Assembly: GCF_902500225.1 (NCBI RefSeq) | Contig: NZ_LR722649.1 | Span: 406,072-470,071, forward strand | Length of the DNA: 64,000 bases | From: Buttiauxella massiliensis | GTDB lineage: Bacteria; Pseudomonadota; Gammaproteobacteria; Enterobacterales; Enterobacteriaceae | Reading direction: 5' to 3' | Part shown: piece by piece, positions 5,157-23,869 of the stretch | Numbering within the stretch: the first letter of the stretch is position 1 | Layout: each line of letters begins with the position of its first letter | Program-made: the position numbers and the translations under genes | Notes under the pieces: generated by a model | What the model saw: only the letters and a program-made list of their open reading frames with translations | What the model was told of the DNA's origin: nothing | Database searches by the model: none

Positions 5157-5157
5157 T

Positions 5158-6072
5158 TTAGTTCGCATTGTTTGATGTTGATGCAATTAGTGCTTTTAGC
5201 GCAGTCGACATAGGTATGTTGAGATTTATCGCTTTCGGCGGAATGGGTGACATAAACCAGCGTTGATATAAATTATTAAAGTCCTTACTAATGAGGATTG
5301 ATTTCATTGTGTCATCAATAAAACCTTTAAATTCATTATCATTTAATGGCAGGAGTAACCCTGCAGGTATTGGCTGGCTAAACACTTCATTCGATATTTC
5401 GAACTCATCAGGATTAGGGGATAGAGTCATCATACCTTTAAGTAATACATAGCTTGAAATTAATGCAGGTAATTCCCCCGATTCAAGGCTCTGAAATGCA
5501 GCATTGTTACTATTTTCTAGTTCTATATTGAGGTTGAGATCGTTCGTTTTATTAAGCTGATGTAATTGCTCAACATAGATTGTGCCACTTTTGACTAACA
5601 CACTGTGTCCGGCTAAATCATCGATGGTATCGGTATGATTATTTTTTCGTGTGATAAAGCGTGTGCTGGAAAAGAAGAAGGGGAGGGTGAACTCTGCTTG
5701 TTGGTGGCGTGCTTCTGAATAAAATGCCGGAATGCACATCATGTCCGTAGCATGGTTTTTGATCAAAACAAACTGCGAGGCGGTGCTGCTTTTGACCCAG
5801 CGAACTTTAAGGTCTTTTATTTTTAACTTAACTTTAAGTGCATCAACGATTTTATTACAAATATCTATCGAATAGCCCGCTGGATGCTGTGACTCGACAT
5901 ACGAAAATGGGAAAGCATCATCCTGGTAGCCGAGTGTGATGGTCTTTGTCTCGGCTATCCTGTCCAGGGTTGGCTTACTATGAATATTATGCGCCCGGCA
6001 CAGCGGGCTTATCAAAAGCAATAGTGCAATGGCCAGATACGAGGTCTTACAAAACAATGGCTTATTCAGCAT
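5158..6072 (-). CDS. GltI-like periplasmic solute-binding protein, first of a pair
   Basis: The start is the ATG of MLNKPLFCKTSYLAIALLLL at 6072, which overlaps the upstream GGDEF-EAL stop by 11 bp; a longer in-frame version is unlikely because it removes the signal peptide from the N-terminus. The mature protein follows GltI to the end, including the tail MSPIPPKAINLNI. The carboxylate-binding Arg position is kept (EARHQQAEF). The Asp pair that binds the ligand amino group in GltI is replaced by Ser-Ser (LISSYVLLKG), so it may bind a different ligand than its neighbour or none. It forms a translationally coupled set with the flanking genes, with no ABC partner genes. The fold is confident and the ligand is unknown. 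Confidence 0.88.
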   Translation of the reverse strand: MLNKPLFCKTSYLAIALLLLISPLCRAHNIHSKPTLDRIAETKTITLGYQDDAFPFSYVESQHPAGYSIDICNKIVDALKVKLKIKDLKVRWVKSSTASQFVLIKNHATDMMCIPAFYSEARHQQAEFTLPFFFSSTRFITRKNNHTDTIDDLAGHSVLVKSGTIYVEQLHQLNKTNDLNLNIELENSNNAAFQSLESGELPALISSYVLLKGMMTLSPNPDEFEISNEVFSQPIPAGLLLPLNDNEFKGFIDDTMKSILISKDFNNLYQRWFMSPIPPKAINLNIPMSTALKALIASTSNNAN

Positions 6073-8293
6073 TGCAAACCTCACCATCGATGACTTTATT
6101 GCCAAAGGTTGGCTCCAGATCTTTTTCTGGCAACGGCCGGCTGTAATAGTAGCCTTGTACGTTTTGGCAGGAAATGCGTCGTAAAATAGTGCGCTGCTGT
6201 TCAGTTTCAACACCTTCGGCGGTCACACTCATGCCATATTTCTGGGCAAACTGAATCAGCATGACTACCAGATACTGACTGGCACTTTCTTGTTCCAGTT
6301 TCATAATCAGCGTGCGGGCAATTTTTATGCGCGTGAATGGATAAATAAGCAGGTAATCCAATGCTGCGTATCCGGTGCCCAGGTCGTCCATTGCAATTGA
6401 GATACCCATCTCGCGAATACTGTTAAAGACGGGTAATGCGATGGACTGATCCAGTTTTTCGGATTCAGTGACTTCGATTTCAAGGCGGTTTGCCGAAAGG
6501 CCGCTTTGTTTCAATGCATCAACAATAATATCAAGCAATCCAGGGCTATGAAGTTGATAGGCAGAAATGTTAACGGCAACTTTTATTGTCTCAGGCCACT
6601 TAGCGGCTGCCATACAGGACTGGCGAATAATCCACTCGCCTAGTCGAATAATCAGACCTGATTCTTCAGCAATATTAATGAAGTAATCAGGGTATATCAG
6701 ACCTTTGGTTGGATGATTCCAACGAATAAGCGATTCATAACCACAAACAGTTTCATTTTCCAAATCGACAATCGGCTGGTAGTGCAGCACAAACTCATTG
6801 TTATCAATACTATTAATGATTTCCTGGTTCACAAACACACTGTTGGTGTGCTTCATCATCATGCCATCTTCAAAGAAGTGGTAGCAGCCACGGCCACTGT
6901 GTTTTGAGGCATACAAGGCCAGGTCGGCATTGATCATCAGCGTCGTAGCGCTATTGCCCTGCGAAGGTGCCGTAACAATCCCGACGCTACAACTGATGGC
7001 GAAGGAGTTTGTGCCGTAGGTAAATGGAATGCTTAACGCGCGGACAATTTTTTGCGACAGCGCGGCAGCTTCCTGATTATTGTCTGACTTCACGCTTTGA
7101 AGGATCGCGAACTCGTCACCGCCCAAGCGGGCAGCAAAATCCATTGGCCCTAACAGCAGTGATAAACGTTGGGCAACACCGATAAGTACTTCATCCCCGG
7201 CCGAGTGGCCGAAGGTATCGTTTACCGGTTTAAAGTTATCAAGGTCAATAAGCAGAAGGTTGAATAGTTGCCCGTTCTGATTCACTTCGCGGATGCACTT
7301 ATCAAGTGCCTGGCTAAATGAGGCGCGGTTAGGAAAGCCGGTCAGTGAATCATGGTGAGCCATATATTCCATTTTTTGCGACATCTCCTGCATTTTCTGC
7401 AGGTAATCTCGTTCAACCATCGCCACGCGCAGTTTTTCAATTGCCGATGCAAGCTTGCCGATTTCATCATCCTGGTCTAAGAAAGGAGTAATGAGGTCGG
7501 TTTGCTCGTGTGCAATACGGGTTAAAGAGTTAATCAGTACAGGGACCGGACGGAATAGTCGGCGCATAAAAATGGTAACCAGCGCAAGCGTTGCCAGTAA
7601 AATCAACGCCAGAATGACAAGGGTCTTCTTCAACATGGCATCGTAAGCTGCATACAGCTGGCTTTTATCACCGATGCTACTGATCAAACTACCAAGAATT
7701 TCACCGGATGGTGCAAGGATCGGAACGGCACTAATAAAGCACTCTTTTCCGTTAATAGAAGCGAAGCCAATATAGTAGTTCACCAGAACGTCTGTGGCTC
7801 TTTGCCCTTTAAAGACTATTTTTGCTTCTGGTGAATCTGAATTATTGCTGATGCCCTGAAAGCCTTTTTCTGGCGTATAAAGGAAAAGCCAGGTTGGGTT
7901 ACGGGTTTGCACTGAAGCCAGTGCCAATACATCAACAGGGTTATAACCGGTTTGGATGACTGAGTCAGGGTCACCAAGTTTATGTTCCGAGACAATACGT
8001 GTAATTTGCCCGGTTGAGCTCGTTCCTACCGCGACATTGGTGTACACGTTACGGACGATGTAAGTCATTATTTGAGCATTCGCTTCAGCCTGGTGTACCC
8101 ATTGCTGGTACGAGAAGCTATCAATCAGGCCCCAACCAGCACATGCACCCGCACCAAACGCAATAAGGATACCAGCCAACAAGAATTGGGTTATTTTTCC
8201 TGCGATAGAATGGTGCCAACCTTTTACGCGTTTAAGCGAGAAAAAATTTTTAGCCACAGATTGATAGTTTCCTAATAAATGCGAATGACTCAT
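6062..8293 (-). CDS. Membrane sensor GGDEF-EAL protein heading the lapG-lapD operon
   Basis: The 743-aa product has a TM helix at about 32-56, a periplasmic Cache-like sensor domain (about 60-220), a second TM (about 222-245) and a HAMP-like linker. A GGDEF domain (intact GGDEF at 391-395) and a C-terminal EAL domain follow. The inhibitory RxxD site upstream of GGDEF is absent (GPMD). The EAL signature reads ESL at 520-522, but the metal- and substrate-binding positions look intact (VAVNIS, EVTES, MDDLGTG, IKIA, AEGVETEQ, VQGYY). It could therefore make or break c-di-GMP. It is the first gene of a five-gene operon ending in lapD, and the following two genes encode periplasmic binding proteins that are good candidates to contact its sensor domain. 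Confidence 0.92.
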   Translation of the reverse strand: MSHSHLLGNYQSVAKNFFSLKRVKGWHHSIAGKITQFLLAGILIAFGAGACAGWGLIDSFSYQQWVHQAEANAQIMTYIVRNVYTNVAVGTSSTGQITRIVSEHKLGDPDSVIQTGYNPVDVLALASVQTRNPTWLFLYTPEKGFQGISNNSDSPEAKIVFKGQRATDVLVNYYIGFASINGKECFISAVPILAPSGEILGSLISSIGDKSQLYAAYDAMLKKTLVILALILLATLALVTIFMRRLFRPVPVLINSLTRIAHEQTDLITPFLDQDDEIGKLASAIEKLRVAMVERDYLQKMQEMSQKMEYMAHHDSLTGFPNRASFSQALDKCIREVNQNGQLFNLLLIDLDNFKPVNDTFGHSAGDEVLIGVAQRLSLLLGPMDFAARLGGDEFAILQSVKSDNNQEAAALSQKIVRALSIPFTYGTNSFAISCSVGIVTAPSQGNSATTLMINADLALYASKHSGRGCYHFFEDGMMMKHTNSVFVNQEIINSIDNNEFVLHYQPIVDLENETVCGYESLIRWNHPTKGLIYPDYFINIAEESGLIIRLGEWIIRQSCMAAAKWPETIKVAVNISAYQLHSPGLLDIIVDALKQSGLSANRLEIEVTESEKLDQSIALPVFNSIREMGISIAMDDLGTGYAALDYLLIYPFTRIKIARTLIMKLEQESASQYLVVMLIQFAQKYGMSVTAEGVETEQQRTILRRISCQNVQGYYYSRPLPEKDLEPTFGNKVIDGEVCNAE

Positions 8294-9007: not shown

Positions 9008-11200
9008 TTGGACTCTACAGTGAGCAATAGCACAGCATATACCAATAAACGGTGGGTTTTACCGCTGGTACTTCCGTGCCTGCTTTACTTACTGGCGCAG
9101 CTACTAAGCAGTCATCGGGTTTTTGAAGACCAGGTATTGGTAGTGTATGACCTGAGATTAGCAGCTCTGACGGCTTTGCTTGTGTTGTTTGGCTACAGAG
9201 TCATTGCCGGGGTTACTCTGCTTGCTGTTTACACATTGTTATACCGTCCAGAACCTGAAATCTATGAACTGTTTTGCTATCAGTCTACGGCCCTAATCAG
9301 CTACTTCCTTTATAAACAGAGTACGGGCTGGCGAAGTGCGGCAAGTTTTGGGCGTATAAAGCTCACTACCAAAAGAATTATCTGGCTATGTGTTTGTAAT
9401 GCTTTACTAAATACCGTTATGAGCGAAGTGATTTTTCTGTTTACGACCTATCACACCGACTCAAAAATGGTCTTTGATCAAGTTTTCAATGCGGAAACTC
9501 TGGTCAGAATACAAGGGGTGATGAACGGGTGTGTTACCGGCATTCCTTTGTTTTATACCGTGTTAAGGATTATTTGCCGCCCGAAGTATTGGTTTACTTG
9601 CGTAAGAACGATGAAGGCTCAGTTTTCTGCAAACGTGAGTCTTTCCCAGTTTGCCGCGTGGTCGGTAGTGCTGATTGCTCTGATGTACTGCCTGAATACT
9701 CCTTACCAGGGCTCGGTCTTATTCACCTTTTATAGCCTGATATTAATCTTCCCGCTCATGCTGTGGAGCTCTGTTCGTATCGGCTATGTTTTTACGGCAC
9801 CTGTCTGGACCGTGATGATGATTGTGCTGGCGAAGAACAACGCAAATTATATCGCGCTAAACGATGACTTCATGCTTCATCAGGTGTTGGTTTCAACGGT
9901 CATTTTTATCTTTACCCTGACCATTGTCATCATGGGCGTTTTGGCGAGATTCAATACGTTACGCTTCGAGCAGTTGCTTCATATGGGGTTCACAGACCCC
10001 ATGACCAACATGCCTAATCTCCGGGCATTAAAGGCTGATATAAAAGCATCCCCGAACTCTACCGTTTGTCTGATACAAGTTCCTGAAGTGGATCTGTTTG
10101 CCCGGCGCTATGGCACGCACTTTCGTGCCAGATATCAGAAAAAACTAGCTCAAGAGTTACGTACAAAACTGAATGACGATGAAAAGGTTTACTACCACGC
10201 GGGCTACGGTCTGCTGTTCAAGCTCGAGCAGCCGAGCTGGGGAAGACTTAGCATTCTGTACCGGTCAGCGAATACGTTTCGTTATTCCCATAATAACCAG
10301 CAACTCGGCTTTCGCAGTGGGCTTGGCTATTGCCGGGCCACACAATTTTGCGATGACGTTTACAGCCTGACCGGGAAGCTCGGCATCGTCTCCGGGCTAT
10401 CGGTGGTGAGCGGTAAGCCTGAAAACCTCGAAGCACAATCCAGTCGCGCCATTGAACATCATATTGTTGGGCGTACCGATATCCGAACAGTCTTACAGAA
10501 GACGCTGGATAACGATGCATTTGTCTTAATGGCGCAGCCCATCGTCAGCACCCGTGGTGAAGAGCGGTATCACGAAATACTGCTTCGCATGCTGGATGAA
10601 GAAGGGCGCTTTATTCCGCCAGATCGGTTCTTACCGGTGGCAACCGAAGCGGGCCTGGCACCAGAAATTGATTTATGGGTGATTAAGAACACCTTAAAAA
10701 ATATGCAGTTGTACCCTGACCGCTGTTTTTCAATCAACCTGACGCCGGTGACTGTTTGTCGCGCAAGCTTTGTTAATAGCGTTCAGCTATTGCTAACGCA
10801 GTTTGGGGTCGATCCACATAGGATCATCTTTGAAATTACCGAAGCGGACGCGCTGTCCGATACGGAGCAGTCACAGAATACGGTGCGCTCGCTCAAAAGT
10901 CTGGGATGCCGGATAGCGATTGATGACTTTGGCACGGGCTTTTCTAGCCACGCCCGTTTAAGAGACGTCAGCGCGGACATTCTGAAAATAGACGGTTCTT
11001 TCATTCGTGAAATTACCGAGAACGAACTCAGCCACTACATTGTTGAGTCGTTTTGCCATGTAGCAAGAATGAAGAATATGCAGGTCGTTGCTGAGTATGT
11101 TGAGAATGAAAAAATTCAGCGGTGCCTGGAAAAAATGAACGTTGAATGGCTACAGGGCTATCACTTAGGTAAGCCTGTGCCTTTACTGACGTTGGTATGA
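9008..11200 (+). CDS. PdeF/YfgF-like membrane c-di-GMP phosphodiesterase
   Basis: The 730-aa protein has a multi-pass MASE1-like membrane module (about 15-320), a degenerate GGDEF-like domain and a C-terminal EAL domain. Sequence and layout follow E. coli PdeF (YfgF), for example TDPMTNMPNLRALK and the EIL form of the EAL motif at about residue 523. The GGDEF site is lost (YHAGYGLLF). The EAL residues FEITEAD, AIDDFGTG, LKIDGSFI and VVAEYVENE are present, so phosphodiesterase activity is expected. The start is TTG at 9008 or GTG at 9020; no ribosome site clearly decides. It is a paralogue placed directly upstream of the chemosensory operon, from which a hairpin at 11210-11239 separates it. 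It probably lowers the c-di-GMP pool that the following cyclases raise. Confidence 0.88.
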   Translation: MDSTVSNSTAYTNKRWVLPLVLPCLLYLLAQLLSSHRVFEDQVLVVYDLRLAALTALLVLFGYRVIAGVTLLAVYTLLYRPEPEIYELFCYQSTALISYFLYKQSTGWRSAASFGRIKLTTKRIIWLCVCNALLNTVMSEVIFLFTTYHTDSKMVFDQVFNAETLVRIQGVMNGCVTGIPLFYTVLRIICRPKYWFTCVRTMKAQFSANVSLSQFAAWSVVLIALMYCLNTPYQGSVLFTFYSLILIFPLMLWSSVRIGYVFTAPVWTVMMIVLAKNNANYIALNDDFMLHQVLVSTVIFIFTLTIVIMGVLARFNTLRFEQLLHMGFTDPMTNMPNLRALKADIKASPNSTVCLIQVPEVDLFARRYGTHFRARYQKKLAQELRTKLNDDEKVYYHAGYGLLFKLEQPSWGRLSILYRSANTFRYSHNNQQLGFRSGLGYCRATQFCDDVYSLTGKLGIVSGLSVVSGKPENLEAQSSRAIEHHIVGRTDIRTVLQKTLDNDAFVLMAQPIVSTRGEERYHEILLRMLDEEGRFIPPDRFLPVATEAGLAPEIDLWVIKNTLKNMQLYPDRCFSINLTPVTVCRASFVNSVQLLLTQFGVDPHRIIFEITEADALSDTEQSQNTVRSLKSLGCRIAIDDFGTGFSSHARLRDVSADILKIDGSFIREITENELSHYIVESFCHVARMKNMQVVAEYVENEKIQRCLEKMNVEWLQGYHLGKPVPLLTLV

Positions 11201-11209
11201 AATGGCTGT

Positions 11210-11239
11210 GAAAAATCACTTTCTTTGGAATGATTTTTC
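11210..11239 (+). terminator. Hairpin after the pdeF-like gene
   Basis: GAAAAATCA pairs perfectly with TGATTTTTC across a 12-base loop, nine bases after the stop codon. The 3' arm is T-rich, so it may act as a weak terminator before the chemosensory operon. Confidence 0.5.
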
Positions 11240-11330
11240 TGGCCCTTACGCTCGCGTGTCCAGTGAGTACTGCACGTAGCAAGATATTAATTCGGCATTA
11301 ATTTCACATTATCTAGATCACTGGAATCTC

Positions 11331-13430
11331 ATGCATAAATTCTTAAACATGCAGCAACCTGCGGAAGCTGACGCCTTAGCTACTACGGAAAAATTTCTGA
11401 CATCATGGCTGCATAAGTTGCAAATCGGTGTCGCCATGAAGCTGGGCCTGATGCTGGTTTCATGCATTGCTGTGTTGTTGGTTGGTGCATCCTTCGTGCT
11501 TTCGTCTTACCTGGCGACTCAGCTGCAAGATAATGCTCTGGAAGTTCTGCGTTCCAATACACGGATTTTCCACAATAACATCAACACCGAATACAAAAGG
11601 GTCCTGCGGGACGCTGAGCGTTATAGCAACGTTTATATTAACAATTACCAGAATATGTCCCCGGCTCCGCTGCGTTCGCTGGATGAAACTGCGCTTAAAG
11701 CTTTATTAAGTGATACCAATATTAATTCCCACTTCACTGAGTTAACCAGCGTATTCGCTTCCACCTTAGTGCGTGAAGGCGATCAGTTTGTGCGCGTTTC
11801 TTCGACCTTGCAGGGTAAAGAAGGAAAGATTGCCACTTCTACCGTTCTGAGCCATGACAACCCTGCATATGCTGCGTTAATCAAAAACAAACCCTTCTCT
11901 GGTGTAGTGGTGATTTACGGAAAACAGTTCATTAGCCACTACGAACCGATTGCCGATAAATTCGGCCAGGTTGTTGGGGCGGTGGCAATTGGTTTTGACG
12001 TTAAACTTGCTTTGCAGCCGGTCATTAAAGAACTGTTAGCGGTACACATCGGCGAGGGAGGTTACGCATACGTGCTGGATGCTGGATTTAGCCCAGGCAC
12101 TATGGTCGCACACCCGACTCTGGTGAATCAGCATGTTGAGAACCTCACCGACGCCCATGGTTATAAGCGTTACGCCGATATTTTAGCGCGTAAAAACGGC
12201 ACGATTTATTACGAAACCGTCAGTGGATATGGTGCTGCTCCTCGCAAAAGAGTCGCGGTGTTCGAATATATTGATGGGATTAACTGGATCATCGCCACTA
12301 CCAGTTATGTTGATGATGTTGCTCGCAGCAGCAACCTGGTACGCAATAGCCTGCTGCTTTTCAGCTTGCTGCTGATGCCGATAATTTTGCTGTTGATTGC
12401 CGGAACCAGCCGAATCCTGATTTCCAAGCGTTTGAAGAACGTATTGAAAATTTCACAAGCGATTTCTCAGGGTGATCTCACCGTTGATATTCGTATCGAT
12501 CATAAAGATGAAATCGGTGACTTGCTGAGCGCCAACGAAAAGATGCGGGCTTCTTTGCATGCGTTAGTCGGCGGAGTTGTTTCTCACGCCCATCACGTAC
12601 ATGAAGCGGCACTAAAAATTACAGAGGCTGTTGATGGCCAGGCTTCTACTAGCGTTGAAACCTCTTCTTCGGTAGCAGAAATCACCTCGACCATGGAAGA
12701 GTTGTCAGCTTCTTCTACGCAGATTGCTGAGCATTCTCGCGCAGTGGTAGACATTGCCAATGTGACTCTTGATGACTGCAACAAGGGCTCCGATTCGATG
12801 GGTGAATTGCTGACTCGCATGTCTGATATCGACAGCGACAACCAGCAAAGCATGCGCGAAATTATGATGCTGGGTAACAAGTCTAAAGAGATTAGCCGCG
12901 TGATGGTTATCATCAACAACGTTGCTGACCAGACTAAACTCATTGCCTTTAACGCGGCTCTGGAAGCTTCTAGTGCTGGCGAGTCCGGTAAACGTTTCTC
13001 AGTAGTTGCTGCAGAAATTCGCCGCCTGGCAGACTCAGTGACCGAATCGACCTTTGAGATTGAGAACAAAATCAGCGAAATCCAAAACTCGATTAATCGC
13101 CTGGTTCTTAACGCAGAGAAGGGCAGCAATAGCATTAAAGCGGGCACTAAAGCCTGTAAAGTCAGCGCCGACCGCTTACATGACATAGTAGCAACTGCTG
13201 AACAAACCTCTACCGCGGCCATGCAGATTTCTTTGTCTACTCAGCAACAGAAAACGGCAAGTAATCAGGTCGTTATGGCTTTGCGCGAAATCGTAGTTGC
13301 CAGCAATTACACCTCTCAATCAATTAAAGACATTCTGTCCATCAGCCAGGATATGACCCAGTTATCCGAAGAGTTGAACCAGGCCTCAGGGTCTTTCAAA
13401 TTGACGGATAGACCTGATGAACAGGCCTAA
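11331..13430 (+). CDS. Methyl-accepting chemotaxis protein of a Wsp-like pathway
   Basis: This 699-aa receptor has TM1 at about 34-56, a large periplasmic Cache-type sensor domain (about 57-335), TM2 (about 338-360), HAMP and a methyl-accepting signalling domain. The hairpin tip reads VADQTKLIAFNAALEASSAG. That differs from the usual flagellar-receptor tip (QTNLLALNAAIEAARAGE) and resembles receptors of non-flagellar alternative pathways. No C-terminal CheR-docking pentapeptide is seen, which fits a CheR that carries its own TPR. It is the first gene of a tightly packed operon, and its last 14 bases overlap the CheB gene. The ligand is unknown. Confidence 0.93.
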   Translation: MHKFLNMQQPAEADALATTEKFLTSWLHKLQIGVAMKLGLMLVSCIAVLLVGASFVLSSYLATQLQDNALEVLRSNTRIFHNNINTEYKRVLRDAERYSNVYINNYQNMSPAPLRSLDETALKALLSDTNINSHFTELTSVFASTLVREGDQFVRVSSTLQGKEGKIATSTVLSHDNPAYAALIKNKPFSGVVVIYGKQFISHYEPIADKFGQVVGAVAIGFDVKLALQPVIKELLAVHIGEGGYAYVLDAGFSPGTMVAHPTLVNQHVENLTDAHGYKRYADILARKNGTIYYETVSGYGAAPRKRVAVFEYIDGINWIIATTSYVDDVARSSNLVRNSLLLFSLLLMPIILLLIAGTSRILISKRLKNVLKISQAISQGDLTVDIRIDHKDEIGDLLSANEKMRASLHALVGGVVSHAHHVHEAALKITEAVDGQASTSVETSSSVAEITSTMEELSASSTQIAEHSRAVVDIANVTLDDCNKGSDSMGELLTRMSDIDSDNQQSMREIMMLGNKSKEISRVMVIINNVADQTKLIAFNAALEASSAGESGKRFSVVAAEIRRLADSVTESTFEIENKISEIQNSINRLVLNAEKGSNSIKAGTKACKVSADRLHDIVATAEQTSTAAMQISLSTQQQKTASNQVVMALREIVVASNYTSQSIKDILSISQDMTQLSEELNQASGSFKLTDRPDEQA

Positions 13431-14484
13431 AATTCGGGTGCTGATCGTCGATCATGGCAGCGTGTCGCGCAACGATCTGATTAGACAGCTTGAGATCAAT
13501 AAAAACATAGTGGTCGTAGGCCAGGCTGTGCATCGCGAACAAGCGGCGAGCCTGGTTCAAAAGATGGCTCCGCAACTTCTGTTGCTGACGTTAGGTGCGC
13601 CAGGTCCGGAAAACGTCGAAACCGTTGAAACGATTATGGCCACTTGCGCGATCCCTATTATGGTGATGCGTTACTATCCCGATGCGCAGTGGGATGCGGA
13701 GTTCATCACGCGTGGTGCCCTGGCTGTGGTAAACAACCAGGGTGAGTCAGCACAGGCGACTAAAGCGTTGCATCGTCAGGTTGAGATGTTGGTCGGTGTT
13801 AAGGTTATTCGCCATATCCAGGGGCTACGTCAGCATTCCGAGGTTCAGCCAGATAGCATTCAGGCTCCCATTTTTGACGAGGCGTATCACCGAGAGTGGC
13901 CCTATGTGTTGGCAATCGCCTGCTCAACGGGTGGGCCACAGGCGCTAAGCAAATTACTGCAGGCACTGCCTGCAGATTTTCCTTGCCCGATTATTATCGC
14001 CCAGCATATTGCTGACGGCTTTGCCAAAAGCATGGTTGAGTGGCTGGATAGTGTCACTGGACTTATTGTGCAACTCGCTCAGGAAAATGATGTGTTATGT
14101 GCCGGCCACGTTTATATCCTGCCTCCGGAGCACCATCTGGTGGTCAAAAAGTATCATCGTTTGGCTGTTATTCCTCGCAAGGTGACTGATGTTTATCATC
14201 CAAGCTGCAATTTGCTGCTGGAGTCTGTGGCTGAAGTTTATGGTGAAAAAGCAGTAGGACTCATCATGACGGGCATGGGTAGCGATGGATGCCGTGGCAT
14301 CGAGGCTATCTTCCATAATGGCGGTAAAACACTGGCGCAGGATGAAGTGTCCTCTGTCGTATTTGGTATGAATAAATTCGCCATCGACAAAAACGTGGTT
14401 CATAAGACACTTCCGCTGGAAAAACTTGCTGGTGCTTTGTTGGCTATGGCTCGTCTTGGGCAATCTGAGGGCAAACTGCCATGA
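13417..14484 (+). CDS. CheB-type methylesterase with a degenerate receiver domain
   Basis: The 355-aa protein has the CheB layout: receiver domain (about 5-120), linker, methylesterase domain (about 162-350). The esterase triad is intact: Ser170 (ACSTGGPQ), His197 (AQHIADGF) and Asp290 (MTGMGSDG). The receiver has lost its phosphorylation site: the acceptor Asp aligns with Thr58 (LLLLTLGAP for the usual TLDVEMP), the acidic pair is Asp12-His13, and the conserved Lys is Asn. CheA therefore probably cannot switch it by phosphorylation. It would remove methyl groups from the upstream receptor as WspF does, but under different control. It overlaps the receptor gene by 14 bp and the cheR gene by 4 bp. 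Confidence 0.92.
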   Translation: MNRPKIRVLIVDHGSVSRNDLIRQLEINKNIVVVGQAVHREQAASLVQKMAPQLLLLTLGAPGPENVETVETIMATCAIPIMVMRYYPDAQWDAEFITRGALAVVNNQGESAQATKALHRQVEMLVGVKVIRHIQGLRQHSEVQPDSIQAPIFDEAYHREWPYVLAIACSTGGPQALSKLLQALPADFPCPIIIAQHIADGFAKSMVEWLDSVTGLIVQLAQENDVLCAGHVYILPPEHHLVVKKYHRLAVIPRKVTDVYHPSCNLLLESVAEVYGEKAVGLIMTGMGSDGCRGIEAIFHNGGKTLAQDEVSSVVFGMNKFAIDKNVVHKTLPLEKLAGALLAMARLGQSEGKLP

Positions 14485-15905
14485 TCCCAAATATTGCGGC
14501 CTTTAAAACACTCATCAAAGATAGAGTGGGTCTGCATTTTTTTAATGGCATGGAAGGATTGCTCAATGCGGCATTGCAGCAGCGCATCTCTGAGCGCGGT
14601 AAAGAGAGCTTTGAAGAATACTATGAGATCCTCTGCGTCTCGACTGACGAATTCGATAAGCTTCTTAGCCTACTGACGATTAACGAAACGTACTTTTTCC
14701 GTGAGCCGGATGTGCTGGATATCATTTGCGATAAGCTGGTGCCGCGCATTCTTGAGCAACGCAGTGGCCCGGTGCGCATCTTAAGCGCAGGCTGTTCTTC
14801 GGGCGAAGAAGCTTACTCTCTGGCAATAAAGCTCCATCAGAAATACCACGATAAATTCATCGACAACGTTGAGATTCACGGCTGCGATATCGATACCAAA
14901 ATTCTGGAAAAGGCTCGTACAGCAATTTACTCCAGTTACTCTTTCCGTGGTGTCGATCCTTTATTGCAGCAAAGCTATTTCACACGCAACGGTAACCAGT
15001 TCCAACTGCATGATGTGATTCGTAATAAGGTGAAGTTTCACCGTGCGAACATTGTTAAAGAACAGCTTCAACCCACATTCGATATTATTTTGCTGCGTAA
15101 CGTCTCCATCTACTTTGATGTCGAAACGCGCCGAGCACTGCATTTTAACCTGCTGAACATGCTGCAACCGGAAGGGGCGCTGTTTTTTGGTAACGCTGAA
15201 ACGCTGGCTAATAATTTTGGCATCCTGAAGCTTAAACAAGAGTTCGGGAATTTCTACTTCTGCCAACCGAAAGCGGCGCGTACTCAGGCTCCGGTAACCA
15301 ACGTACGACCACGTATTATTACTCCGGTTATTCCGGCCGCCGCACCTTTCATTGATGCTCCGGTTCCTTCCGCGCAGCAGTGTGATAGCTGGATTAAAAA
15401 AGCACTCGCCTGCGTTGCTGACAAACGCTTTTCTGAAGCAGAAGAGCTGATAGGTCAGGTGTTGAATAGCGACATTCATAATCTGGAAGCGCTGGTTATC
15501 AAAGGTGCCATTGCACTGGAGAAATGTGAGTTCGAGCAAACGGCTTTAAGTGCGAAACACGTGCTTGAGCTGGATGAATGGTCTGCGGAAGCGAAAATGC
15601 TACTTGGTTTGGCAATGATGTGGCAGCAGCATACCCAACAGGCGATTGCCTGGTTTAAACAGGTTGTTTATCAACAGCCTGGATACTGGCCTGCCCATTA
15701 CTACCTAGCCGAAATGTATCGACAAAGCGAGTTGTACCGCCCGGCTCAACGGACTTATCGCATTACTCTTCAATTACTCAACGCCGAAATGAGCAATACC
15801 GGCAACGCCACCGCATTGCGGCTGCCGCTGTCATTTCCGAGTAATTCTTTTCGTTTTCTTTGTGAACATCAGCTGGCGCAGTTCACCACTCAGGATGGGC
15901 AATAG
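14481..15905 (+). CDS. CheR-type receptor methyltransferase with C-terminal TPRs
   Basis: CheR adds methyl groups from S-adenosylmethionine to receptor glutamates. The 474-aa protein has the N-terminal helical domain, the signature NETYFFRE (68-75), the AdoMet loop LSAGCSSGEEAYSLA (101-115) and LLRNVSIYFD. From about residue 300 it carries tetratricopeptide-like helices (AEELIGQVLNSDIHNLEALV, AIAWFKQVVYQQPGYWPAHY). The flagellar CheR of E. coli lacks the TPR part; WspC of Pseudomonas has one, so this supports an alternative-function pathway. ATGA overlap with the CheB gene implies translational coupling, and the CheA gene begins 8 bp after its stop. Confidence 0.93.
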   Translation: MIPNIAAFKTLIKDRVGLHFFNGMEGLLNAALQQRISERGKESFEEYYEILCVSTDEFDKLLSLLTINETYFFREPDVLDIICDKLVPRILEQRSGPVRILSAGCSSGEEAYSLAIKLHQKYHDKFIDNVEIHGCDIDTKILEKARTAIYSSYSFRGVDPLLQQSYFTRNGNQFQLHDVIRNKVKFHRANIVKEQLQPTFDIILLRNVSIYFDVETRRALHFNLLNMLQPEGALFFGNAETLANNFGILKLKQEFGNFYFCQPKAARTQAPVTNVRPRIITPVIPAAAPFIDAPVPSAQQCDSWIKKALACVADKRFSEAEELIGQVLNSDIHNLEALVIKGAIALEKCEFEQTALSAKHVLELDEWSAEAKMLLGLAMMWQQHTQQAIAWFKQVVYQQPGYWPAHYYLAEMYRQSELYRPAQRTYRITLQLLNAEMSNTGNATALRLPLSFPSNSFRFLCEHQLAQFTTQDGQ

Positions 15906-15913
15906 AGAACCGT

Positions 15914-18058
15914 ATGGCTATCGATCTTAAAAAATTTGTGCTGCGCTTTATTGATGAAGCAAACGGCCATTTACATACCGTAAAAGAGGGGGCGTTCCTG
16001 CTCTCATCTGGTCAAAATACCGACGCACAAATCGGAGAGATGTTCCGTGCGGCACATACCCTGAAAGGGGGCGCGCGAATGCTGAAATTGCAAAGCATCG
16101 CCGATGTTACCCATCAGCTTGAAGAGATATTAAGCGAGCTACGAGATAAAAAACTCGAGCCTAACCAAAGCATTGGTACATTAATTCTTCAGGCCTGTGA
16201 CTACATTTCAAACCAACTGGCACAACTGTCGGCAAGTGAAGGTAATAACCAGTTGCCTCCGGCCGATGTTGCATTATGCGAGCAGTTAGCCCGCGCCAGC
16301 CGTGGAGAAATAGACACAGCTGCTGATGAAATAGCTAAAGCCCCGGTAGAAAAAACGGCCACTTTGCCATCGCTCGAAGTATTAGATGGTGGCTTAAAAC
16401 AGGCCGGTTCGGTTCGGGTTAAGCTCGAAAAACTCGATGACCTGATTAACATCCTCGGTGAAGTTGTCGCCAGTCATGACCGTCTCGAGCAGCAAGTACA
16501 CACGTTAGTCAATCTTGGGCCACGGCTGGCACAAATGGATGTCGAACAACTGCGCAAGCAGGTTCTGCAATTCAGCCGCAAGCTAAAAGATGATTTCCAG
16601 GTTCAACATCTCCAGATGCATGAACTTTATGATGTTGCCACCACCATTCGAATGCTTCCGGTGTCGATGCTGTTTGAACCGGTCTCAATGCAGGTGCGGG
16701 AACTGGCATCCTCCCTGAATAAGCAGGTGGACTGCCGTATTTTGGGTGGTGAAGTAGAGATCGACAGGCAATTAATCGACAGACTTTCTGAGCCTTTAAC
16801 CCACTTGCTGCGTAATGCCGTTGATCATGGTCTTTGCGAAGCACCAGAACGGTTGGCTGCCGGAAAGTCGGCGCGTGGCACCATCACCCTGACCACTCAG
16901 CAAGACGGGCGCGGTATTTTGCTACGTGTGGAAGATGATGGCCGTGGCCTGGATTACGCGGCTATTCGCGCTAAAGCGGTGGCTCGTGGTTTGGTTGATG
17001 CGGCTGTGGTTGATCAGCTTTCAGAGCTGGAATGTAACGAGCTTATTTTCCATCCTGGATTTTCAACCAGCAAGATTGTCACTGAATTATCCGGCCGTGG
17101 TGTGGGCCTGGATATTGTTCGCAAGACTATTGTGACTGATTTACAAGGCACGCTTCAGGTCCATAGCCGCCCAGGGCAAGGCACCACCTTTATTATCAGG
17201 CTGCCCATTTCTCTGGCAATGATGCGCATTTTGCAGTTTGAACAGCAGAACCATCTTTTTGGGGTTGCTGCGCAGTACGTCGTTGAAGTGGTTAAATATT
17301 CTCGTGATGAAATTCGTGATATTGCCGGGCGCCCGGCAATTATTCTGCACAACGAATTTATCCCGGTTATCTCCGCGGCTGAAATACTGCGTATCAACGA
17401 CAGGCCTGGAGTACATAACTCATCGGCCTCTAATGCGAATGACTTGCTGCTTATTATCATTCAGAACCAGTTTGGCAAGATGGCGATGCTGGTGGACAGC
17501 TTGCTCGATGAACGCAGCATGATGATTAAGCCTCTGCCGAAGCATATGCAGCAGCAGTCGCTAGTCTCTGGCATGGTTCTAAGCCCCGACAATCAACTGG
17601 TCAGTATCTTGCAAGTTCCAGTTTTAATGGATATGGCACAAAAACAAGGGCAGCCACGGACCGCTGCACCTAAGCCACAAGTTCGACAGAACTCATGGCA
17701 TGTGCTGATCGTCGATGATTCATTGAATACGCGTGAAATTGAGAAAAACGTTCTGGAAGCACACGGTTATCAGGTCACGCTCGCCGAAGATGGATTCTCG
17801 GGGTTACAAAAAGCGCGTTTAACACAGTTTGACGCAGTGTTGACGGACGTAGAAATGCCAGTGATGGATGGATTCTCGCTCACTAAAGCATTGCGTGCCG
17901 AAGATAACTACCAACATATTCCGATTATTATCGTGACTTCACGGGCTAAAGAAGAAGATCGCCGCCGAGGGATCCAGGTGGGTGCGGATGCATATATAGC
18001 CAAGGGTGATTTCGAACAGGACAGCCTCATAGAAACATTAAAAATGCTTTTATGCTGA
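15914..18058 (+). CDS. Hybrid CheA histidine kinase with fused receiver (WspE-like)
   Basis: The 714-aa kinase contains an Hpt/P1 domain with phospho-His48 (RAAHTLKGGARM) and a dimerisation domain. The HATPase domain has N-box LLRNAVDHG, G1 VEDDGRGL and G2 GRGVGLDIV; a CheW-like domain (about 425-560) and a C-terminal receiver (about 595-714) follow. The receiver has the acidic pair in LIVDDS and the acceptor Asp in LTDVEMPVMDG. A P2 domain for flagellar CheY is not evident between P1 and the dimerisation domain. CheA-REC fusion is the WspE and FrzE arrangement. It should phosphorylate its own receiver, the stand-alone REC and the GGDEF response regulator encoded just downstream. Confidence 0.94.
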   Translation: MAIDLKKFVLRFIDEANGHLHTVKEGAFLLSSGQNTDAQIGEMFRAAHTLKGGARMLKLQSIADVTHQLEEILSELRDKKLEPNQSIGTLILQACDYISNQLAQLSASEGNNQLPPADVALCEQLARASRGEIDTAADEIAKAPVEKTATLPSLEVLDGGLKQAGSVRVKLEKLDDLINILGEVVASHDRLEQQVHTLVNLGPRLAQMDVEQLRKQVLQFSRKLKDDFQVQHLQMHELYDVATTIRMLPVSMLFEPVSMQVRELASSLNKQVDCRILGGEVEIDRQLIDRLSEPLTHLLRNAVDHGLCEAPERLAAGKSARGTITLTTQQDGRGILLRVEDDGRGLDYAAIRAKAVARGLVDAAVVDQLSELECNELIFHPGFSTSKIVTELSGRGVGLDIVRKTIVTDLQGTLQVHSRPGQGTTFIIRLPISLAMMRILQFEQQNHLFGVAAQYVVEVVKYSRDEIRDIAGRPAIILHNEFIPVISAAEILRINDRPGVHNSSASNANDLLLIIIQNQFGKMAMLVDSLLDERSMMIKPLPKHMQQQSLVSGMVLSPDNQLVSILQVPVLMDMAQKQGQPRTAAPKPQVRQNSWHVLIVDDSLNTREIEKNVLEAHGYQVTLAEDGFSGLQKARLTQFDAVLTDVEMPVMDGFSLTKALRAEDNYQHIPIIIVTSRAKEEDRRRGIQVGADAYIAKGDFEQDSLIETLKMLLC

Positions 18059-18069
18059 AGGCTTAAAAA

Positions 18070-18450
18070 GTGAGAAAAGAGATGCGTGTTTTATTAGTTG
18101 ATGATGATTTGTTTGCCGCTGAATTGGCTTCGGTATTTCTGGAAATGAGCGGCTATGAAGTGGTTCTTGCTGAAAGTGCAATGACCGCATTAGCCAATCT
18201 TGATTCTGACGATGGAATCGATTTGGTCATCAGCGATTTCCATATGCCGGAAATTACCGGGCTGGATTTACTAGAGGTTTTGCGTGCCAACGGCTGGAAA
18301 AAACCTTTTATTTTACTCAGCGCCAGTGAGATGACTGACATCACTATCATTCCAGATTGCTGGGTGAAGAAAGACGAGAATATGGCTGAAAGGCTGGTGG
18401 CTGTAGTGAATGAGTTACTTAAGCCAGATGCTGCGGTAGAGCAACTATAA
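18070..18450 (+). CDS. Stand-alone receiver domain (CheY-like)
   Basis: The 126-aa single-domain response regulator has acidic cluster LLVDDD, phospho-acceptor Asp in VISDFHMPEITG, the switch Ser in ILLSASE and the Lys in CWVKKDE, so phosphorylation should work. There is no output domain. The start is GTG at 18070, eight bases after GAAGG; an ATG at 18082 is an alternative. It sits between the hybrid CheA and the multi-domain cyclase, where it may serve as a phosphate relay or sink between the kinase and the Hpt domain of the next protein, or as an output binding another partner. The Wsp system lacks such a component. Confidence 0.9.
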   Translation: MRKEMRVLLVDDDLFAAELASVFLEMSGYEVVLAESAMTALANLDSDDGIDLVISDFHMPEITGLDLLEVLRANGWKKPFILLSASEMTDITIIPDCWVKKDENMAERLVAVVNELLKPDAAVEQL

Positions 18451-18453
18451 ATC

Positions 18454-20142
18454 ATGATAAAACAAGAGTTTATGCAAAATACGATGAATACTGCTCAAGA
18501 TAAAATCGCTCGCTTGCGTCAGCGCTTTTTGCAGCGTATTCCCGTGATGTTAAGTCAGGCAGATGCTCTGCTGGCAAAATTAGTCACTGAACCGAATGAA
18601 GTGGATAGTAAGCAATTGCACCTTTTGTTGCATAGCATCCACGGGACCAGTGCGTCGTTTGGTTTCACGAAAATTGCCAGCCAGGCTGCTGAAGGTGAGC
18701 ACCTGTTAGTGAGTCATTCTGTTTCGGATACGAAATACAGCAAGCTTGGCGAGATATTACGCCAGCTATATGCATTGACTGAAGAGCAGATGGAAAGCGC
18801 ACGTCGTGGAGCAGACTCTTTAGTTAAGTTCCCGATAGCGGCTTCGACTCAGGAAGAGGTTGCGATTAATCGCACCATTAAGCCTGTTTATCTGTGTGAC
18901 GATGAATGCGACCAGGCTGAATTACTGGCAACCCAACTTCGCTGTTTTGGCTTTATCTGTTATGTGTTTACCAACACCGCCGATTTTACCAAGGCGGTTT
19001 TATCACAGCCTCCGTCAGTGGTCATTATGGATGTTAGCTTCCCGGATAACGCTTATGGCGGCCCGCTTGCGATGTCTGATCTGAGAGAGAAAGTCGGCAC
19101 ACCTTTCCCGGTGCTTTATCTTTCCTGCCATAGCCATTTCCACGCTCGCATTAATGCGATTAAAGCCGGCTGTGATGGTTACTATGTAAAACCTGCATCA
19201 ACCACCGATTTAGTTCAGGAGTTGCACCGCTTAACGCAACCGTCACTGAAAAAACCGTATCAGGTTTTACTGATTGATGATGAGCCTGAAGTCGCGCAAT
19301 ACAATGCCGAGATGCTGCGTATGGCGGGGATGGAAGTGCATGTTCTTACGCAGATTCCACACTTGCTGAATGTTCTCAATACTCATCCGATCGATATTGT
19401 TCTGATGGATTTCCACATGCCGGACTACAGTGGCGAAGAACTGACAAAACTGATTCGTCAGATCCCACAACATATCGGTTTGCCTATCGCCTATCTCTCA
19501 AGCGAGACCAATAAGAAAACCCAGTTTGGGGCGATGAGTACTGGCGCGGAAGATTTTATTATTAAGCAGGCCGATCCGCAGGAGTTAATTAATGCGGTTT
19601 CGATTCGCGCAGAAAGAATGCGTACACTGCGTGCTCGCATGTCTCAGGATAGTTTGACGGGCCTGTATAACCACTCAACGACGACGCATTATCTGGAAAG
19701 CGCCATCACAGAGTCCAACTACAGCGGCATTCCATTTAGTCTGGTAATGGTCGATTTGGATCACTTTAAAAATATCAATGATACCTACGGTCATGTCGCG
19801 GGCGATCAGGTGATTCTGGGCATCTCACAGCTGTTTTCCCACCGTTTACGCAGCACCGATATTGTTGGGCGCTATGGCGGCGAAGAGTTTGCGATAATTA
19901 TGCCGGGCACCACGCAAGAACAGGCAGCCGCAGTGGTTGAAAGACTGCGCCAGGGATTTGAAAAAATTCACTTCTCAGTCAACCAGACTAACTTCAGCAA
20001 TACCTTCAGTGCGGGAATTGCCTCCTGGCAGCCGGGAGACAAAATAGAAACTATCCGCGAACGTGCAGACCAGGCTCTATATTCGGCAAAACAGCATGGC
20101 CGTAACCGTTATTGCATTGCCGATGATAAGGAAGTCGCATGA
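18454..20142 (+). CDS. Hpt-REC-REC-GGDEF response regulator, output cyclase of the pathway
   Basis: The 562-aa protein combines an N-terminal Hpt domain (phospho-His63 in LHSIHGTSASFG), a first receiver (Asp pair 149-150, acceptor Asp193 in VIMDVSFP), a second receiver (LLIDDE, acceptor Asp319 in VLMDFHMP) and a GGDEF domain. The cyclase has an intact GGEEF (475-479) and an intact inhibitory RxxD (Arg466, Asp469) five residues before it. It should make c-di-GMP when phosphorylated and be limited by product. WspR has only one receiver and no Hpt, so this is a more elaborate output. It follows the REC gene by 3 bp and overlaps the CheW gene by 4 bp. ATGs at codons 7 and 11 are alternative starts. 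Confidence 0.93.
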   Translation: MIKQEFMQNTMNTAQDKIARLRQRFLQRIPVMLSQADALLAKLVTEPNEVDSKQLHLLLHSIHGTSASFGFTKIASQAAEGEHLLVSHSVSDTKYSKLGEILRQLYALTEEQMESARRGADSLVKFPIAASTQEEVAINRTIKPVYLCDDECDQAELLATQLRCFGFICYVFTNTADFTKAVLSQPPSVVIMDVSFPDNAYGGPLAMSDLREKVGTPFPVLYLSCHSHFHARINAIKAGCDGYYVKPASTTDLVQELHRLTQPSLKKPYQVLLIDDEPEVAQYNAEMLRMAGMEVHVLTQIPHLLNVLNTHPIDIVLMDFHMPDYSGEELTKLIRQIPQHIGLPIAYLSSETNKKTQFGAMSTGAEDFIIKQADPQELINAVSIRAERMRTLRARMSQDSLTGLYNHSTTTHYLESAITESNYSGIPFSLVMVDLDHFKNINDTYGHVAGDQVILGISQLFSHRLRSTDIVGRYGGEEFAIIMPGTTQEQAAAVVERLRQGFEKIHFSVNQTNFSNTFSAGIASWQPGDKIETIRERADQALYSAKQHGRNRYCIADDKEVA

Positions 20143-20663
20143 GCGAGCCATTAGAGCAAATACTCAGTCTCTATCAGGACGAAAATCGGGAAATTGCCAA
20201 CGTTGATGAACCGCAGTGCAGCCTTGTTTTGTTTAAGCAGGCTGACAAAAATTTTGCTTTTTACGGTTCGCAAATAAAAGAGATTCTGGCCGAGCGCCCT
20301 GTGTCATGGGTGCCAGGCTGCCCGCCTTCTCTTGAAGGGGTGATTAATTATCGTGGGCGCGTTGAATCAGTGATTAACATTAATCAGTTAATTGATGCCG
20401 CTGGTCAGGATGTGCCAGGCAAACGCACAATTTTTATTGGCCGGGGCAATAAAATGCAAAGCGGGATACTTATCGACAAATTAATAGATGTGCTGGATGT
20501 GGCTGAAAGCCTGATTCTTCCTGCCGCTGATAATTTATCTGCTGCTATGCAAAAAGTGGTGGTCGGTATTGTTCCTGTAGGCCACGAGTATTTTGCGCTA
20601 CTGGATTTGAATTTAGTCTTTGAGCGTTACCTGGAAACCAGTGGCTATGACTCACTCGCTTAG
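20139..20663 (+). CDS. CheW-type coupling protein
   Basis: The 174-aa protein is a single CheW domain preceded by about 25 variable residues. Family features include LVLFKQADKNFAFYGSQIKE, PGCPPSLEGVINYRG, GILIDKLIDVLDV and VGHEYFALLDL. CheW proteins bridge the receptor tip and the CheA regulatory domain in signalling arrays. It begins with ATGA overlapping the stop of the cyclase gene, and its own 3' end overlaps the next coding region by 17 bp, so its level is probably tied to both neighbours. Confidence 0.92.
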   Translation: MSEPLEQILSLYQDENREIANVDEPQCSLVLFKQADKNFAFYGSQIKEILAERPVSWVPGCPPSLEGVINYRGRVESVININQLIDAAGQDVPGKRTIFIGRGNKMQSGILIDKLIDVLDVAESLILPAADNLSAAMQKVVVGIVPVGHEYFALLDLNLVFERYLETSGYDSLA

Positions 20664-21006
20664 TCTTGCGGCAGTGCGAATCACCCTCGGGAAGATGCAT
20701 TTTTATATCCCATCATCGCAGGTGCAGCGCTGTGTGCTGGCGGGGCCCGATACACCGGATATACAGCAATTTAGCCACTGGCTAGGGTTGCCGGGTGAGC
20801 CACAGAGCGGTATGCATCTGCATTTATTAGTTCCTGCAAGTAACGTCGCAAAAGGTTGGTACTTCTGGGGAGAGCTGGAAAATGTGGTACTACGGCCAAA
20901 TGAAATACTCCCGCTACCCGTGATATTACAGCAATGTTGCAAATTACCCGGGCTGCGCGCGCTGGTGCAGGATGAAAGCCTGAGTCCGTTATTAAGCTGG
21001 CGGTGA
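20647..21006 (+). CDS. Small, divergent second CheW-like protein
   Basis: The start is the ATG of MTHSLSLAAVRITLGK, inside the last codons of the CheW gene. The 119-aa product is shorter than CheW (about 150-170 aa) but keeps a CheW-like order: an early strand pair (VRITLGKMHFYIPSSQVQRC), a middle loop, and LPLPVILQQCCKLPGLRALV near the end. The Wsp operon also has two CheW homologues, WspB and WspD. It could be a reduced coupling protein specific for this array. The assignment rests on position and weak similarity, so function is uncertain. It is the last gene of the operon. Confidence 0.7.
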   Translation: MTHSLSLAAVRITLGKMHFYIPSSQVQRCVLAGPDTPDIQQFSHWLGLPGEPQSGMHLHLLVPASNVAKGWYFWGELENVVLRPNEILPLPVILQQCCKLPGLRALVQDESLSPLLSWR

Positions 21007-21226: not shown

Positions 21227-22237
21227 ATGTCTGACAATCTTATCGAGCGTATTTCCACCGCGTTAGAATCTGAATACACACTTGAGGGGCTTGTCCGACA
21301 GCTGCTGGAAATGCTCGAATTGGTTACCAACATGGAGTCAACTTACCTGACTCGTATTGACCCGGACGGCAGTTTCCAGCATATCCTCTTTGCCCGTAAT
21401 ACCCATCACATGCAGATCCCTGAAGGCCTTTCGGTTCCTTGGGGTGATACGCTTTGCAAGCGCGCGTTAGACGAAGGAAAGCGTTACACCTGCGATGTGG
21501 CCAATGTTTGGGGGGATTCGCAGGCCGCGAAAGCGTTAGGCATTACCACTTACGTCAGCACGCCGGTAACACTTGCGGATGGTTCTTTATATGGCACGCT
21601 GTGCGCAGCCAGTTCCGAGCATCGCATTTTGACTGAGCGTAGCGAACAAGTGCTGCAACTCTTTGCACAGCTGATTGCGCAACAAATTCAGAATGAACAG
21701 CTTTTGCAGCAGCTCCAGCAGGCAAATGCCGCGCTCACTACCGCCAGCTATACTGATGAACTGACAGGGCTGCCTAACCGCCGAGCGGTATTTGAAAAGT
21801 TACCAAAACTCTTTTCTCAGGCTCGTCAGGATGCGCGTTTTGTGTTGCTGGCTTTTGCCGATCTGGATGATTTCAAAGAAATTAATGATGTTTATGGCCA
21901 CGATTCTGGTGATGACTTCCTCTGCTCCATTGGGCAGCGCTTGCAAGCAGGTGCCCGGCCTGACGATATAATAGGGCGAGTCGGTGGTGATGAGTTTATC
22001 GTGGCCGGTATTGGTCCTAAAGAGTACGGCATGGCGCTACAGGCTGCGCAGGCATTCAAAATTCGCCTCTCAAACTTGCTGACTGGCGAGTATCAGCTAC
22101 ATTCCAGTGTGATTAATTATGCAGGCCCGAGTATTGGTGTTGTTGCAATCAACCCAGAGCTAACCGATCACGATCAGGCGTTGCGCGAAGCTGATGCCGC
22201 GATGTATCTCGAGAAAGATCGTCGCCGGGGCTTATAA
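21227..22237 (+). CDS. GAF-GGDEF diguanylate cyclase
   Basis: This soluble 336-aa protein has an N-terminal GAF domain (about 15-160), a short coiled linker rich in Gln (QNEQLLQQLQQANAAL) and a GGDEF domain. The catalytic motif GGDEF is intact at 253-257 and the inhibitory site is present (Arg244, Asp247). It should make c-di-GMP under control of a small cytoplasmic ligand or redox/light cue sensed by GAF; nothing in the sequence fixes which. It is 220 bp downstream of the chemosensory operon and probably has its own promoter. It is the last gene of the accessory block before the conserved yqeF. Confidence 0.9.
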   Translation: MSDNLIERISTALESEYTLEGLVRQLLEMLELVTNMESTYLTRIDPDGSFQHILFARNTHHMQIPEGLSVPWGDTLCKRALDEGKRYTCDVANVWGDSQAAKALGITTYVSTPVTLADGSLYGTLCAASSEHRILTERSEQVLQLFAQLIAQQIQNEQLLQQLQQANAALTTASYTDELTGLPNRRAVFEKLPKLFSQARQDARFVLLAFADLDDFKEINDVYGHDSGDDFLCSIGQRLQAGARPDDIIGRVGGDEFIVAGIGPKEYGMALQAAQAFKIRLSNLLTGEYQLHSSVINYAGPSIGVVAINPELTDHDQALREADAAMYLEKDRRRGL

Positions 22238-23850: not shown

Positions 23851-23869
23851 AATGAAACGATATTTCAAT
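23851..23869 (+). promoter_or_regulatory. KdgR-type operator in front of kdgM
   Basis: AATGAAACGATATTTCAAT matches the KdgR pattern (TGAAAN5TTTCA) and ends 13 bp before the kdgM ATG, touching the ribosome site. A second palindrome, GTTTCAT-AATA-ATGAAAC at 23841-23858, overlaps its left half. Pectin-derived KDG would lift KdgR repression. Confidence 0.8.

Follow-up and report, generated by a model that had tools for sequence, protein, structure and literature searches.

A chemosensory operon of eight genes occupies positions 11331-21006 of a 64,000-nucleotide stretch of the Buttiauxella massiliensis genome (contig NZ_LR722649.1, positions 406,072 to 470,071; the whole stretch is referred to as the window). 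On sequence grounds the operon is an enterobacterial branch of the systems known from Halomonas as chemosensory cluster 2, which are cousins of the Wsp system and not Wsp itself; its kind is uncommon, and is already known and published in its main features. The operon adjoins a Lap-type adhesin system, and for this reason both probably form one sense-and-attach circuit. Our best explanation, to which we give a probability of about 0.7, is one co-inherited module in which a receptor would act through CheA and a diguanylate cyclase (DGC) on cyclic di-GMP (c-di-GMP), and LapD would thereby keep the protease LapG off the adhesin. We consider the adjacent LapD/LapG/adhesin block more informative than any other feature of the locus.

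Gene content and order of the operon

All eight open reading frames (ORFs) lie on the + strand, with overlaps of 4-14 bases or gaps of 3-11 bases at their junctions; the exception is the pair CheW and small CheW, which overlap by 44 bases, or by 17 with ATG 20647 as the start of the latter. Domains were assigned from Pfam; the matches for the CheB receiver, the TPR and CheR_N fall under the Pfam curated cut-offs. The operon encodes, in order, a methyl-accepting chemotaxis protein (MCP; 11331..13430) with a periplasmic Cache_3-Cache_2 sensor domain, HAMP, MCPsignal and a 40-heptad (40H) hairpin; a CheB methylesterase with a pseudo-receiver and retained esterase residues (13417..14484; alignment of 36 CheBs); a CheR methyltransferase with a C-terminal TPR (14481..15905; Pfam and aligned motifs); a hybrid CheA kinase with Hpt, dimerisation, HATPase, CheW-like and C-terminal receiver (REC) domains and intact phosphosites, in which no Pfam match to a P2 domain was found (15914..18058); a stand-alone receiver, CheY2, with a GTG start and an intact phosphoacceptor (18070..18450); a DGC of the architecture Hpt-REC-REC-GGDEF (18454..20142); a CheW coupling protein (20139..20663; PF01584); and a small aberrant CheW (CheW3; 20647..21006). 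The start of CheW3 was set at ATG 20647 because related ORFs align from there. The eight packed genes listed in an earlier note made from the letters alone were thus recovered, and its description of a non-flagellar, Wsp-like operon ending in a DGC agrees with the Pfam domains and with the CheA trees given below.

The 128-amino-acid ORF at 20620-21006 that holds CheW3 has no match in Pfam or NCBIfam. Its predicted fold (mean predicted local distance difference test score, pLDDT, 73.6) resembles CheW: Foldseek ranks 1-17 are CheW and CheA structures, rank 1 alone having E < 0.001 (8e-4). Residues and gene content were compared in the window and 30 related loci, a set in which close relatives are not independent. 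A CheW3-like ORF follows CheW in 26 of these 31 loci (window counted, rows judged by eye); in L042, L044 and L185 no ORF of at least 70 amino acids was found in the searched place after CheW, and in L182 and L189 the ORFs there are unlike CheW3. The order MCP-CheB-CheR-CheA-REC-DGC-CheW is identical in 23/23 related loci (chosen for high CheA similarity), which places the operon far from chance.

Both arms of the MCP hairpin hold 14 residues more than those of the genome's own flagellar MCPs, which we take to be of the 36H class. The 40H receptor of cluster 2 is accordingly recognised here by symmetric 14-residue inserts. No tether pentapeptide (NWETF-type) is present at the MCP C-terminus. 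Sensor domains vary with lineage among the 10 receptors scanned plus that of the window: Cache_3-Cache_2 in Buttiauxella and in a second genus of the same family, a dCache_1-like domain under the Pfam cut-off in Halomonas and Thiopseudomonas, and dCache_3 in distant loci. Solved structures exist for the Halomonas-type sensor (9b9s, E 4e-179 against locus L058), and a Halomonas cluster-2 receptor reportedly binds purines according to a later study. The window sensor has a weak partial match to 8py0 (E 4e-8, residues 78-232), and the AlphaFold model of this domain (pLDDT 33) is too low in confidence for use.

Conserved residues in the cyclase, receivers and CheB

All 31 cyclases compared have the Hpt histidine, the aspartates of both REC domains, the inhibitory RxxD (I-site) and GGEEF, so that the catalytic and inhibitory sites noticed earlier are indeed intact; catalysis and control by phosphorylation are predicted from these motifs. 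The top NCBIfam match of the cyclase is PleD of Caulobacter (209 bits, cut-off 474), which likewise has tandem receivers before GGDEF; the window cyclase differs in its extra N-terminal Hpt and in keeping the aspartate in both receivers. The lone receivers retain the phosphoacceptor aspartate in 31/31 loci (judged by eye).

The window CheB had been called degenerate, and the degeneration proves to be confined to the receiver, where the phosphoacceptor column holds Thr58. All 10 enterobacterial CheBs (7 Buttiauxella, 3 of the second genus) are without the phosphoacceptor aspartate (Thr in 9, Ala in 1); in the same proteins the second acidic residue is replaced by His or Leu, the Ser/Thr by Arg or His, and the Lys by Asn, Tyr or His. 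The phosphoacceptor is retained in 20/20 other cluster-2 CheBs and in 6/6 Wsp CheBs. The esterase serine is retained in 30/30, and the esterase His and Asp in every variant among those listed (29 and 25 of 30, respectively); at one of the 31 loci, L182, no CheB was detected. The window thus departs from a trait that is usual in cluster 2, though not stated as defining: a CheB with a phosphorylatable receiver. CheB of the enterobacterial branch is predicted from these residues to be beyond switching by phosphorylation. With a dead receiver, receptor demethylation would no longer give kinase-driven feedback; it would then be constant or set by receptor shape, and adaptation would be independent of kinase output.

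Relation to cluster 2 and distribution

In passages of Gasperotti et al. (2018; PMC5907407), chemosensory cluster 2 of Halomonas titanicae KHS3 is described with the same order and domains; an aberrant CheW3 is remarked upon, resemblance to Wsp is noted, other orders including Enterobacteriales are said to carry the cluster, and the output of such systems is left open. The earlier note knew of no named enterobacterial system with this set, and that view is superseded by the 2018 description. The main text of PMC5907407 makes no mention of Buttiauxella. The window shares with H. titanicae cluster 2 all eight genes (MCP-CheB-CheR-CheA-REC-DGC-CheW-CheW3), their order and domains, the Hpt-REC-REC-GGDEF cyclase, the aberrant small CheW and the CheA clade. 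It differs in its CheB receiver (intact in Halomonas, dead in the enterobacterial copies), in its sensor domain (dCache_1-like there, Cache_3-Cache_2 here), and in the EAL gene and Lap system that are linked on the enterobacterial side.

In the CheA search (best 80 of 548 matches), four named Buttiauxella stood at 86-95% identity, followed by Halomonas, Vreelandella, Marinospirillum and Thiopseudomonas at 44-47% over the whole protein, and then, after a gap, by matches at ≤35%. A CheA at ≥74% identity was found in 4/246 sampled family genomes; the protein is present in 12/12 Buttiauxella genomes and, at 73-75% identity, in 10/17 genomes of the second genus. In plasmids 435 records matched, all below 60% identity, the best being 45.5% on a 1.8-Mb Halomonas replicon and the other 19 listed lying at ≤32%. 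Profile searches of 369 genomes of the class and 398 of the phylum yielded further high-scoring CheAs. Fetched loci with a CheA of at least 898 bits carry the cluster-2 set, complete up to CheW in L178, L179, L185 and L189 and without a detected CheB in L182; the CheAs of six recognised Wsp operons scored 446-478 bits. A threshold of ≥635 bits was tried as a criterion for cluster 2 and rejected, as the genes around cheA differ in L180, L181 and L190 (648-697 bits), whose CheAs lie outside the clade.

The CheA tree comprised 44 rows: 18 cluster-2 loci, 6 Wsp systems identified by gene order, the genome's own flagellar CheA, and 19 others. In the full-length tree the 18 cluster-2 rows, the window among them, form one clade (100/100) and the 6 Wsp rows another (100/100); the enterobacterial branch is not nested within Halomonadaceae. 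The kinase-core tree (42 of the 44 rows; two were dropped because the core was not delimited) gave 100/99 and 100/100, respectively. Three features, the CheR-TPR, the multidomain regulator and the 40H receptor, are compatible with the alternative cellular functions (ACF) class of Wuichet and Zhulin.

Linkage to a Lap adhesin system

Upstream of the operon, the window holds lapD (1619..3559, - strand; NCBIfam NF045673, 1070 bits, cut-off 1020; domains LapD_MoxY_N, HAMP, GGDEF, EAL) and lapG, for a periplasmic cysteine protease (3569..4267, - strand; NF045674, 363 bits, cut-off 320; Peptidase_C93). LapD is predicted to bind c-di-GMP and to sequester LapG. The C-terminal end of a giant Ig-like-repeat adhesin lies at 46..942 (+ strand; NF012196), with the remainder outside the window; this assembly has runs of N there. 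Adhesin homologues are ORFs of 2702-4661 amino acids in five relatives, one of them cut by the end of its stretch. The N-terminal piece carries TAAG at 103-106, as do 5/5 N-termini examined; we take this to be the N-terminal dialanine motif of Lap adhesins. The protein is called an adhesin because of the Ig-like model on its end piece, its size, its neighbours and TAAG. Beyond it, outside the window, are type I secretion genes (HlyD, ABC with Peptidase_C39, OEP). The arrangement matches the Lap system of Pseudomonas fluorescens and P. putida (LapD, LapG, LapA, LapBCE) in LapD, LapG, the secretion trio and a giant adhesin with TAAG near residue 105; it differs in the chemosensory operon, which the passages on the Pseudomonas system do not describe as part of it.

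From adhesin to CheW3 the block has one and the same gene order in six genomes, three of Buttiauxella (that of the window, G252 and G249) and three of the second genus (G168, G261 and G255); secretion genes were seen in 5/6 of these, the sixth stretch ending inside the adhesin. Full-length LapD occurs in 12/12 Buttiauxella, and the gap between cheA and lapD is 12,132-12,531 bp in 22/22 carrying genomes. In the second genus, a linked LapD and the CheA are found in the same 10 of 17 genomes and neither in the other 7, in which the best LapD match scores 160-169 bits (Fisher p 5e-5, relatedness ignored). Two of the ten carriers hold a second, unlinked LapD.

In the second genus mutS lies on the cheA contig in 9/10 carriers, 22.8-57.8 kb away, so that the intervening stretch varies in size. 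In G255 the block is bordered by permease-like genes (identified by eye) on one side and mutS on the other, at a distance of 39.3 kb from each other; in three of the seven block-less genomes, which were inspected, these markers are separated by 2.3, 2.9 and 7.4 kb and the block is absent. An isochorismatase-like flank gene was rejected as an empty-site marker (present in 3/17 only) and mutS was used instead. From the joint presence and absence, the constant gap and the empty mutS sites, the block seems to be gained and lost as a unit. As a separate observation, the mutS side of the second genus is a variable locus with cargo differing between species (L284, L285, L286, L287 and L290).

A link between the operon and a Lap system is not described in the titles or abstract openings of the literature matches listed, and the main text of PMC5907407 holds 0 mentions of LapD.

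Proposed circuit and alternative explanations

What the sequences show directly is the gene content, the residues, the CheA phylogeny, the unvarying linkage and the shared presence or absence; from these we infer a direction of phosphoflow, a change in c-di-GMP and LapD as its target. The Cache-domain receptor, with its own CheW or CheWs, would control the hybrid CheA, the state of the receptor setting CheA autophosphorylation. Phosphoryl groups would pass from CheA to its own REC, to the lone REC and to the two cyclase RECs, the last being reached directly or via the lone REC and the CheA REC; the cyclase Hpt may also lie on this route. Phosphorylation would govern how active the GGEEF domain is and, through it, the amount of c-di-GMP, and the neighbouring EAL protein (9008..11200) would remove the messenger. 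In Buttiauxella and the second genus the Lap system alongside is the probable main reader: LapD with bound c-di-GMP would hold LapG, the adhesin, sent out through the products of the linked type I secretion genes, would stay on the surface, and cells would attach; low c-di-GMP would free LapG, and cells would be released. This LapD-LapG-LapA mechanism has been established for Pseudomonas, and an effect of LapG on the adhesin CdrA comes to light in P. aeruginosa with a wspF background (passages of PMC4694147); GcbC, which has a Cache domain, is a known case of a cyclase whose signal reaches LapD through contact (passages of PMC6050961).

Two readings would assign the operon to another known pathway. 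As an ordinary Wsp system with rearranged genes it would explain the Wsp-class parts (40H receptor, CheR-TPR, CheA-REC, two CheWs, GGDEF response regulator), and a resemblance to Wsp has been published for cluster 2. The gene order is unlike the wspA-B-C-D-E-F-R order of the six Wsp operons fetched, there is an extra REC, and the cyclase is Hpt-REC-REC-GGDEF and not REC-GGDEF, differences that had already been pointed out in the earlier note; the CheA lies outside the WspE clade, and a tree holding the enterobacterial CheAs with those of Wsp is rejected (approximately unbiased test, p 3.3e-5). The parallel with Pseudomonas Wsp (WspA-F, WspR) therefore stands for the parts and fails for descent, and we regard a rearranged Wsp system as very improbable. 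A role in flagellar chemotaxis, to which an MCP, CheA, CheW, CheB, CheR and a CheY-like receiver would all be suited, is scarcely credible: the genome (4.88 Mb) has a separate flagellar-type che set on another contig, the receptor length class is unlike that of flagellar receptors, and a search allowing up to 3 mismatches found no sigma-28-type promoter within the operon (the rest of the window gave two matches, both with 3 mismatches, a result reached by 14 of 100 shuffles). In the CheA tree the operon is likewise set apart from the one row labelled flagellar, 19 others being unlabelled; a CheA placed within flagellar systems had been named beforehand as what would refute the non-flagellar reading, which the tree leaves in place.

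The operon might instead feed a general c-di-GMP pool serving motility, cellulose or other outputs, the Lap genes being mere neighbours in a mutS region that collects inserts. This is consistent with the variable mutS side in the second genus, with the Halomonas cluster-2 loci that have no adjacent lapD and with the LapDs that occur apart from the operon. It sits poorly with the constant cheA-lapD spacing of 12.1-12.5 kb, with joint presence or absence in 17/17 second-genus genomes, and with retention of the same block in Buttiauxella despite different genes after CheW3, and we consider it unlikely, although far from negligible. Several observations weigh against the sense-and-attach circuit. 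The window's genome has many GGDEF/EAL proteins (42 matches to the LapD model at E ≤ 0.001), so that the c-di-GMP signal may be shared. LapD is present in 26/242 sampled family genomes without the chemosensory operon and hence does not need it, and no lapD or lapG was found beside the operon in 12 Halomonas, Thiopseudomonas and distant cluster-2 loci, as far as their flanks were fetched, which makes Lap unlikely as the ancestral output. The linked LapDs of the second genus, at 1001-1020 bits, lie close to the curated cut-off of 1020; 4 of the 10 genomes concerned hold a LapD over it, and in G266 that is the unlinked second copy. The long adhesin pieces match no Pfam adhesin family and have scattered weak matches only; the gene-by-gene reading of the block covers 6 genomes only; and the Lys of the cyclase Hpt is replaced by His (HSIHG) in all 10 enterobacterial copies, leaving the activity of that domain uncertain.

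The sense-and-attach circuit may be extended, tentatively and at clearly less than even odds, to a horizontally mobile, self-contained attach-or-leave circuit of about 40 kb, in which the receptor array, the CheA relay, the cyclase, one or more phosphodiesterases, LapD and LapG, the adhesin and its exporter would be inherited together. In it, c-di-GMP would be passed locally from cyclase to LapD and CheB would be freed from kinase feedback, so that receptor methylation would store a slow signal rather than adapt to kinase output.

Other features of the region

The probable phosphodiesterase at 9008..11200 (+ strand; MASE1-EAL by Pfam, EAL residues judged by eye) lies upstream of the MCP in Buttiauxella and second-genus loci and was not seen there in the 12 Halomonas, Thiopseudomonas and distant loci; it is possibly the first gene of the transcription unit in enterobacteria. 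Between it and the MCP (11201-11330), a 9-base inverted repeat was noticed by eye, perhaps an attenuator or weak terminator, which is absent from the terminator scan. Divergent from the EAL gene is a conserved gene for a GGDEF-EAL protein (6062..8293, - strand; Pfam). Two periplasmic solute-binding proteins of the SBP_bac_3 family (5158..6213 and 4290..5186, both - strand; Pfam) are encoded between lapG and the GGDEF-EAL gene and are kept in both enterobacterial genera. The two may control how active the GGDEF-EAL protein is, an arrangement for which NspS-MbaA of Vibrio offers a parallel.

Just downstream of the operon is a gene for a GAF-GGDEF protein (21227..22237, + strand; Pfam, with GGDEF and RxxD judged by eye), which is present in 6/6 other Buttiauxella loci and in none of the three second-genus loci. 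Beyond the secretion genes of the window's genome (L194, 14260-17908, - strand) are MHYT-GGDEF and MASE1-EAL genes, the product of the latter being 36% identical to the MASE1-EAL protein at 9008. The LapD model has 28-43 matches at E ≤ 0.001 per Buttiauxella genome, mostly through its GGDEF/EAL part, and these numbers suggest an extensive c-di-GMP network. In two of the Wsp operons, L187 and L191, a pair of Hpt domains was detected in the CheA; these two operons come from different families than the four Wsp operons of group f162. At 23868-27123 of the window, a KdgM porin, an oligogalacturonate lyase and a short-chain dehydrogenase probably serve uptake and breakdown of pectin fragments.

Scans of the window gave 14 sigma-70 promoter matches (shuffle mean 20.5) and 18 terminator matches (shuffle mean 15.0), and no site from either scan is put forward. 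Recent acquisition was also considered from composition; the G+C of the operon (0.46-0.50 in 2-kb windows) resembles that of much of the window, and composition therefore gives acquisition no support.

Implications

Beyond the published cluster 2, the enterobacterial branch adds a lineage-specific change in CheB, a sensor domain that varies with lineage, and physical union with an adhesin-retention system. It provides an example of sensor domains swapped on a conserved relay, and a natural example of a chemosensory pathway in which CheB feedback is lost in one lineage. For this branch, the constant linkage to LapD, LapG and the adhesin in two enterobacterial genera offers a concrete, testable answer on the output of cluster-2 systems.

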